Part shown: positions 21,614-22,947 of the stretch, piece by piece
How positions within the stretch are numbered: position 1 is the first letter of the stretch
Layout of the letters: the number at the start of each line of letters is the position of its first letter
Virus record (IMG/VR): IMGVR_UViG_3300025141_000806
Span: 1 to 22,947 of that record
Length of the DNA: 22,947 nt
Reading direction: 5' to 3' (one strand)
DNA from: a virus
The notes under the pieces: generated by a model
Databases searched by the model: none
Seen by the model: the letters and a program-made list of their open reading frames with translations, nothing else
What the model was told of the DNA's origin: nothing
Translations under genes and position numbers: made by a program

Positions 21614-22711
21614 ATGGCAAAAAAAAATGAACTTGCAACGATTATTGCTGATGAATTAAATAAACAATTTAAACATCGACAGGTTGTTTATTTTCTAGGA
21701 GAAGATAAAAATTCACCGACTGACGTTACCGAATGGGTTTCGACTGGTTCGTCATTATTAGATTTAGCAATATCGAATAGAGCATCAAGTGGGATTCCTG
21801 TAGGGAAGATAACCGAAATAAATGGCTTAGAAAGTAGTGGTAAATCTCTTTTAGGCGCCCATGCCCTTGCAAGTACTCAAAAAAAAGGTGGCATTGCAGT
21901 ATATATCGATACTGAATCAGCAGTATCATCTGAATTTCTTGAAACGATTGGTATCGATACAACAAAAATGCTTTATGTTCAACTTGAAACTGTTGAAGAA
22001 ATTTTTGAAGCGATTGAAAATATTATTGTAAAGATTAGAGAATCAAATCGTAAAAAAATGGTCACTATTCTAGTTGATAGTCTTGCAGCAGCATCTACTA
22101 AGATTGAAATGGATGCTGATTTTGATAAAGATGGCTGGTCGACGGCTAAAGCAATTATCATCAGTAAAGCGATGCGAAAGATTACACAAATGATAGCACG
22201 TCAGAAAGTTGCTTTAATATTTACAAACCAATTAAGGCAGAAATTAGGCGTTATGTTCGGCGATCCGTGGACAACAAGTGGAGGTAAAGCTTTACCATTT
22301 CATTCATCAGTCCGCATACGAGTAAAGAATGTAGGTCAAATTAAAGATAAGAAAAATAATACTATTGGGATTAAAATTAGAGCTCAAGTTATTAAAAATA
22401 GATTAGGCCCCCCTTTAAGGACTGCTGAATTTCCTTTATATTTTGATAGGGGGATTGATGACTATGGAAGTTGGTTAAAAACCATGAAAGAACATAAGCT
22501 AGTAAAACAAGCCGGTGCATGGTATACATTTGTTGATCAAAATGAAAAGGAAATTAAGTTTCAATCGAAAGATTGGGAATCTAAATTAGCTGATAAAAAA
22601 TTAAAAGAGTATGTTTATAATTTAATATGTGATAAAGTAATTCTAAAATATCAATCTAGTGAGTTAGGGATTGATGATGTTATAGAGACAGATAAAACGG
22701 TAGATGAATAA
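21614..22711 (+). CDS. uvsX: UvsX recombinase (RecA-like)
   Basis: The product has 365 residues (T4 UvsX 391). Walker A is GLESSGKS (71-78), preceded by IPVGKITEIN. An acidic strand IYIDTESA-like motif is at about 97-103 (VYIDTESA). Walker B is VTILVDSLA (150-158, D155). The loop and beta-hairpin region has FTNQLRQKLGVMFGDPWTTS and GGKALPFHSSVRIRV. It forms ATP-dependent filaments on single-stranded DNA and performs strand exchange for recombination-dependent replication and repair. Its usual partner gp32 is the gene before it. A strong ribosome site (GGAGG) precedes the ATG. Its last 8 bases overlap the start of the next gene. Confidence 0.93.
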   Translation: MAKKNELATIIADELNKQFKHRQVVYFLGEDKNSPTDVTEWVSTGSSLLDLAISNRASSGIPVGKITEINGLESSGKSLLGAHALASTQKKGGIAVYIDTESAVSSEFLETIGIDTTKMLYVQLETVEEIFEAIENIIVKIRESNRKKMVTILVDSLAAASTKIEMDADFDKDGWSTAKAIIISKAMRKITQMIARQKVALIFTNQLRQKLGVMFGDPWTTSGGKALPFHSSVRIRVKNVGQIKDKKNNTIGIKIRAQVIKNRLGPPLRTAEFPLYFDRGIDDYGSWLKTMKEHKLVKQAGAWYTFVDQNEKEIKFQSKDWESKLADKKLKEYVYNLICDKVILKYQSSELGIDDVIETDKTVDE

Positions 22712-22947
22712 AATTTCATCTAAATATGCAACTCTTATTAATGAAATAGAAAAGGAACATTCCATTGATGATGAGAAGGGATTTGACATTAGTAGTCGAG
22801 TTCTCATCATTGATGGGCTTTGACTCAATACATTCATCCGTTCTTTTAGTGCTAACCCAGCTGTCAATGATGATGGTATACACATCGGAGGTTTAATTGG
22901 TTTTCTGAAGTCTCTTAGATATAGCATTGCGAGGATAAAACCAACCA
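22704..22947 (+). CDS. PIN/5'-nuclease-like protein, interrupted by in-frame TGA; runs off the window
   Basis: The ATG at 22704 overlaps the uvsX end. The frame reads MNKISSKYATLINEIEKEHS (1-20), then SSRVLIIDGL (30-39), TGA at 22821-22823 (codon 40), then LNTFIRSFSANPAVNDDG and IHIGGLIGFLKSLRYSIARI to the window end. The two halves are in the same frame and together match the N-terminus of the PIN-type 5'-3' exonuclease-like proteins found beside uvsX in marine T4-like phages (IIDGLNTFIR...GGLVGFLKS pattern). D37 would be an active-site acid. The stop plus one Leu codon is an extra six bases relative to that pattern. No usual start codon is seen in frame soon after the TGA. The gene is either recoded (see findings), a recent pseudogene or a sequence error. 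The 3' part is outside the window. Confidence 0.7.
22762..22816 (+). other. 16-bp inverted repeat just upstream of the in-frame TGA
   Basis: CCATTGATGATGAGAA (22762-22777) pairs with TTCTCATCATTGATGG (22801-22816), 16 bp with two G-T wobbles and a 23-base loop. The right arm ends one base before the codon CTT that precedes the TGA. Both arms are coding sequence. It could form an mRNA hairpin behind a ribosome stalled at the stop. Confidence 0.75.

Follow-up and report, generated by a model that had tools for sequence, protein, structure and literature searches.

A stop codon beside the active-site codons of a phage 5′–3′ exonuclease gene: probable programmed ribosomal hopping with a trailing hairpin

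How can a phage make a conserved nuclease from a gene in which a stop codon stands 2–3 residues past the catalytic Asp? The question is raised by a single virus record of 22,947 bases (IMG/VR record IMGVR_UViG_3300025141_000806), the whole of which is called the window here. The last gene in it follows a recA/uvsX-type recombinase gene, whose stop overlaps its ATG as read directly in the sequence, and with TGA written as X its frame is ...RVLIIDGL-X-LNTFIRSFSANPAVNDDG, on to the contig end at 22947; just the first 41 post-stop codons are contained in the window. That CTT-TGA-CTC interrupts the nuclease gene after uvsX had been claimed in a sequence-only reading, and direct inspection of 22818–22826 bears it out. 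In an alignment with the Taq polymerase 5′ nuclease, the Asp-Gly before the stop falls on the Asp-Gly of that enzyme, the Asp being a conserved active-site residue, and relatives of the gene match Pfam 5_3_exonuc_N (E 1e-28 to 3e-30); the product is, as judged from these alignments, a 5′–3′ exonuclease of the FEN (flap-endonuclease) family. With a probability of roughly 0.8, it is expressed by programmed ribosomal hopping over the stop, and the best explanation of what is described below is a hop, in-frame (+6) here and frame-changing (+5) in some relatives, with a trailing hairpin as driver.

Relatives were drawn from IMG/VR and are referred to by L labels; most contigs are fragments. A 6-nucleotide (nt) insert of the form CTN-stop-CTN (N, any base) occurs at the identical codon, just after the catalytic Asp-Gly, in many diverse and unrelated aquatic phages, with all three stops (TGA, TAA and TAG) represented and with nuclease identity between stop-bearing clades mostly 38–43% in pairwise comparison. 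In the clade of the window it is CTT TAA CTC (L002), CTT TAA CTG (L003), CTT TAG CTC (L008), CTG TAG CTG (L010/L011), CTT TAG CTA (L014) and CTC TGA CTT/CTC (L160/L163/L171/L177/L185/L195), and in distant clades CTT TAA CTG (L203), CTT TAG CTA (L181), CTG TGA CTG (L204), CTT TAG CTT/CTG (L207 clade), and CTG TGA CTC and CTT TAG CTG (L219, L222). The scans for inserts permitted YTN (Y, pyrimidine) or any codon, not CTN alone, and the codon pair of the 6-nt class was CTN-CTN in 23 of the 24 contexts surveyed; TTA and TTG, which make up 62% of the Leu codons in the window's genes, were never used. Some 290 stop-less homologues have a contiguous D[G/A/S]xN, and in no homologue found, these included, is the stop replaced by a sense codon. 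A scan of the genome collection gave no bacterial contig with the motif, and the insert is absent from annotated phages carrying the nuclease gene, where checked.

Is the gene simply broken? All that favours a sequencing error, an assembly artefact or a recent pseudogene is that the window itself is single-contig data; sequence error and recent pseudogene had been among the competing ideas of the sequence-only reading. However, the insert is present in dozens of contigs from independent metagenomes, and the post-stop remainder in relatives is intact, at about 314–323 codons, rather than decayed. In the window clade the ratio of nonsynonymous to synonymous substitution (dN/dS) is 0.1–0.5 upstream of the stop and 0.0–0.2 downstream, values by which purifying selection is judged to act on both sides of it. 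Conservation together with purifying selection therefore excludes error and pseudogene, to which we give virtually no chance of being right.

If the gene is intact, is its stop decoded as sense? Four other window genes end in TGA, all three stops end genes there, and TAA and TAG serve at the same site in relatives; UGA reassignment is therefore excluded, in line with the earlier opinion that a general reassignment was unlikely. A suppressor tRNA was likewise rejected, none having been found in the stop-bearing phage records examined: 22 stop-bearing records have no tRNA genes, and no suppressor anticodon was seen among about 40 tRNAs called in the L385 record (303,564 bases). That record (L413–L416) has an array including Leu tRNAs with anticodons CAG, UAG, GAG, CAA and UAA, and at 2770–2843 of L414 one predicted tRNA with a four-base anticodon, possibly a misprediction.

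Readthrough, in which a near-cognate tRNA would decode the stop to give a product with two extra residues, DGL-X-LNTF, is another alternative. The 6-nt insert keeps the frame, termination is weak where C comes next after the stop, and 5′ or 3′ RNA structure can help. However, the two extra residues would adjoin the catalytic Asp, three stops are used with no sense codon in the insert of any homologue, the CTN-CTN matching is left unexplained, no suppressor tRNA was found, and the 3′ flank has no extra structure, a search for a 3′ stimulatory element in the 60 nt after landing giving −9.8 versus −9.7 kcal/mol (p 0.64). In addition, a second class of inserts, with the same site and the same hairpin, is not rescuable in this way. 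These are of 5 nt: ACG TGA CA in L310 (same contig as L383), L384 and L386; TTG TAG TG in L367, L369, L376 and L379; CTG TAG TG in L385; ACT TAG CT in L387; and ACG TAG CG in L388. Their stop is in frame and the downstream gene is in a different frame, so readthrough cannot work, and as their sequence stands such inserts would be passable only by a hop or a frameshift. Where the stop is TAG, the last two bases of the take-off codon (X2X3) recur directly ahead of AAY; the TGA form has ACG then ACA. Plain UGA readthrough, also listed among the earlier competing ideas, consequently appears quite unlikely to us. What of a shift of the prfB type? The window heptamer CTTTGAC matches the core of the prfB +1 frameshift site (CTT TGA C) exactly. 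However, the stop in relatives may be TAA or TAG and the codons before it different ones for Leu or Thr, and a prfB-like +1 shift was rejected as it would not restore the frame.

What, then, could move a ribosome past the stop? The 16-bp inverted repeat that the sequence-only reading saw ending one base before take-off is indeed there, complete when two G·U pairs are counted, and folds at −26.4 kcal/mol with a z-score of −4.1 against dinucleotide shuffles. In 29 of 29 distinct stop-bearing contexts surveyed the stem ends 0–1 nt before the take-off codon. Mean folding energy is −25 kcal/mol in stop-bearing contexts versus −10 in 219 stop-less ones, and relative to synonymously recoded versions of each gene that keep its codon usage the stop-bearing mean z is −5.8 (range −3.1 to −8.3) and the stop-less mean −0.8. 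The stems are unrelated in sequence between clades; the N-terminal peptides before the stop also differ between clades. Pairing holds in 91% of cells across the window clade, with several G·U and a few two-sided changes; the G·U pairs suggest that the structure acts as RNA and not as DNA. Over the 50 bases ahead of take-off, members of the L207 clade are 94–100% identical in most pairs (86% for L207–L218), while recA, the endonuclease gene discussed below and the downstream gene are mostly 62–83% identical; for L208–L218 the synonymous divergence (dS) is 0.07 versus 2.8, a strong synonymous constraint. Among 13 independent pairs on the tree, about 7 have stop and strong hairpin together and 0 are opposed. 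Separately, stop-less sisters of the 5-nt clade (L306, L362, L365, L366, L368, L380) have a very strong hairpin and no insert: it lies about 10–65 nt upstream of the DG codons and has its end some 9 nt further upstream than in the stop-bearing genes; z is −6 to −9 in those tested, and several of these hairpins sequester an AGGAGG.

That the hairpin abuts the insert could also suit removal of the six bases from the mRNA, be it as a tiny intron, by hairpin-guided cleavage and ligation, or by RNA editing, and T4-like phages have RNA repair enzymes. However, removal would explain neither why an in-frame stop directly follows the codon nor why the flanks match as CTN-CTN or X2X3-X2X3; there are no conserved splice-like bases, and insert length varies. 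We consider it very unlikely.

With hopping, the course of events in the window phage would be as follows. The ribosome would translate 39 codons and stall, its P site occupied by peptidyl-tRNA-Leu paired with CTT and its A site by TGA; the tRNA would release CTT, the mRNA would move 6 nt, the tRNA would re-pair with CTC, and translation would restart at AAT to yield the normal ...IIDGLNTFIR... protein. The hairpin 5′ of take-off would be held open by the ribosome and could re-form only as the mRNA advances, so that its refolding behind the ribosome would favour a forward hop; in closing it would, on the presumed geometry, push the ribosome forward. The sequences themselves display the insert, the hairpin, selection, the matched codons and the association with endonucleases; from these we infer the hop itself, its efficiency and the hairpin's role. 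The use of CTN-CTN across clades, in the window's case by a genome that prefers TTA/TTG, and the X2X3 rule argue that re-pairing matters; from the mismatched exceptions, it need not be perfect. The hop advanced in the sequence-only reading is supported by the relatives, since when these were checked they too proved to have CTN-stop-CTN with a hairpin. Beyond what that reading contained are the two insert lengths, the several clades, the matching that is sometimes at two of three bases, and a link to homing endonucleases.

A homing endonuclease gene or its remnant is just upstream in five of eight stop-bearing clades, the count of eight being our own reading of the tree plus L387/L388. Between recA and the nuclease gene there is an HNH-NUMOD3 gene of about 200 codons in the L207 clade, and NUMOD3-MTES_1575 genes in L203, L376, L385 and L387 (L376/L385 grouped); L217 has an HNH gene. 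Remnants are of the NUMOD3-MTES_1575 kind in L310/L384, L204 and L388 and of the HNH-NUMOD3 kind in L209. Several of the endonuclease Pfam scores do not reach the curated cut-offs, and in L388 and L209 the remnants were assigned by visual inspection. In the window phage no homing endonuclease gene lies between recA/uvsX and the nuclease, the gap from the recA/uvsX stop to the hop site being 106 nt. Endonuclease and stop occur together in about 8 of 13 independent tree pairs, with endonuclease presence hand-assigned. Stop state changes at least 15–17 times on the best tree, 12 of the changes forced by well supported branches; gains and losses of the stop are indistinguishable because the tree is unrooted. 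L218, which has the stop, and L244, which has not, differ by the entire endonuclease gene and by a tract reaching 68 nt past the landing codon, in which 14 positions differ; the next 1,665 nt or so are identical. The pattern resembles homing with co-conversion. That the L207-clade cassette as a whole spread recently was considered and rejected, as its endonuclease is about 75% identical, diverged like the neighbouring genes, and its hairpin is 94–100% identical; constraint therefore explains the pattern better.

Some further features of this neighbourhood are recorded here in their own right. In L188 a Mom-family DNA modification gene (Pfam E 2e-40) occupies the homing endonuclease slot, −920 to −215 from the site. 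L204 (+1793 to +2699) and L379 (+1889 to +2435) have more endonuclease-like genes, which lie within or after the beginning of the helicase gene next door. One stop-less clade (L314–L324) has in the recA-nuclease slot a conserved gene of about 70–84 codons (MSKLKEMLKASAEADRAKALLTLELLE...), function unassigned.

Could the endonuclease neighbourhood mean instead that the nuclease is a split gene, with a 39-residue peptide and a separately initiated C-terminal protein that assemble? Such neighbourhoods are typical of split genes, and homing endonucleases have split nrdA of Aeh1 and gene 43 of phage 25 (PMC2988022). However, in L002, L207 and L218 the first post-stop ATG is about 90 codons downstream, past the conserved nuclease core, the stop comes 2–3 residues after the catalytic Asp, and neither the matched codons nor the hairpin is explained. 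It is, we think, highly improbable.

Most likely, the insert and hairpin together are the target site, in altered form, of a homing endonuclease whose free-standing gene was inserted just upstream. The insert would spoil the endonuclease site, presumably giving protection from cleavage, the hop would rescue the conserved nuclease gene, and the endonuclease would often be lost later, as in the window. The earlier idea that the insert is a scar is thus partly retained: homing endonucleases are indeed linked to it, but it has been kept, along with a hairpin under selection. The same stop-hop might, however, be kept for regulation, for low or timed nuclease synthesis, rather than as an endonuclease cassette's relic or protection. 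The insert persists without an adjacent endonuclease in the window clade, L181 and L219/L222, and synonymous constraint in the L207 clade is strong; but constraint is also expected if the hop must remain efficient, and the patchy distribution, frequent state change and endonuclease association suggest a selfish origin. Regulation is a possibility to be entertained, though an unlikely one.

Several observations weigh against hopping as set out here, or against its proposed origin. Landing triplets match poorly in two 6-nt variants, CTT TGA CGA (L188) and CTT TGA GTA (L392), and most 5-nt variants match at two of three bases only. Covariation inside the window clade alone is modest evidence on its own because the shuffles used preserve column make-up, not kinship. 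Strong hairpins are also present in some stop-less relatives (in the same place in L004, shifted upstream in L306/L368), and so the hairpin alone is not diagnostic. The window clade, L181 and L219/L222 have no adjacent homing endonuclease, and a few stop-less loci have one (L240, L015/L019). In these last the genes upstream of the stop-less nuclease are HNH homing-endonuclease-like, and the target site may be altered otherwise.

How does this compare with known systems? Among phages, ribosomal bypassing has been well established for T4 gene 60 only, and stop-hopping in frame was known from constructs alone (PMC5009743). Sliding on gene 60 is guided by two structures that form behind the ribosome, a 5′ stem-loop and a take-off stem-loop (PMC11194080), and the title of Bonocora et al. 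2011 (cited in PMC8300805) links its bypass to a homing endonuclease. In both, non-coding nt inside a conserved gene are flanked by matched codons, and a stop is directly after the take-off codon (at all insert-bearing loci here). The mRNA structure at take-off is, here, present and selected and may be stimulatory, and we propose a homing-endonuclease cassette as the origin. However, the gap there is 50 nt and here 5–6 nt, mostly in-frame; the codons there are Gly and here Leu or Thr; and the gene here is a 5′–3′ exonuclease gene, with repeated occurrence in several phage clades and endonucleases of HNH-NUMOD3 and NUMOD3-MTES_1575 types. We rate the present case as gene-60-like in logic, yet minimal, in another gene, and repeated. 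Synthetic stop-hops in Escherichia coli also have a stop between matched codons, 9 nt giving one amino acid (PMC5009743, its ref. 54), but those were test constructs and the present ones are natural, conserved and have a hairpin. In 2016 a review stated that natural in-frame stop-hopping was not known (PMC5009743), and our search of later literature, with most subscription papers outside its reach, found no natural in-frame stop-hop. The byp elements of yeast (Magnusiomyces) mitochondria are also short in-gene inserts skipped in translation, several with imperfectly matched codons (PMC5009743). They, however, are mitochondrial, in many genes and independent of mRNA context, whereas here one gene, bacterial-type ribosomes and a defined stop plus hairpin are involved.

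Table 1. Positions in the window of the recombinase gene, the interrupted nuclease gene and the elements at the proposed hop site
Feature	Position	Strand	Remark
recA/uvsX-type recombinase gene	21614..22711	+	Pfam RecA E 6e-62; upstream neighbour of nuclease
5′–3′ exonuclease gene, first part	22704..22820	+	39 codons, last residues IIDGL
Hairpin 5′ arm	22762..22777	+	conserved in 8 relatives, with G·U and two-sided changes
Hairpin inner helix	22781–22787 with 22795–22801	+	minimum-energy fold
Hairpin 3′ arm	22801..22816	+	one base between its end and CTT
Proposed take-off codon CTT (Leu)	22818..22820	+	
Stop codon TGA	22821..22823	+	TAA or TAG in relatives
Proposed landing codon CTC	22824..22826	+	then AAT ACA TTC ATC
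Nuclease gene, second part (NTFIRSF...)	22827..22947	+	runs off contig end; intact in relatives at ~317 codons

On balance we lean, if only slightly, towards a broader proposition: that natural, minimal, hairpin-driven stop-hops (+6 and +5) are widespread, having repeatedly arisen or spread in phage nuclease genes with different homing endonucleases, with trailing-edge refolding doing most of the work and landing perhaps needing two of three base pairs. These genes form a natural series in which sequence variants are many, hops come in two lengths, and three stops and several codon families are used; the series lets one ask what makes a ribosome release and re-land, and whether a trailing hairpin alone suffices. 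In annotation, genes of this kind will pass for broken, truncated or missing ones. The series also suggests that homing endonucleases repeatedly generate translational bypasses at conserved active-site codons.
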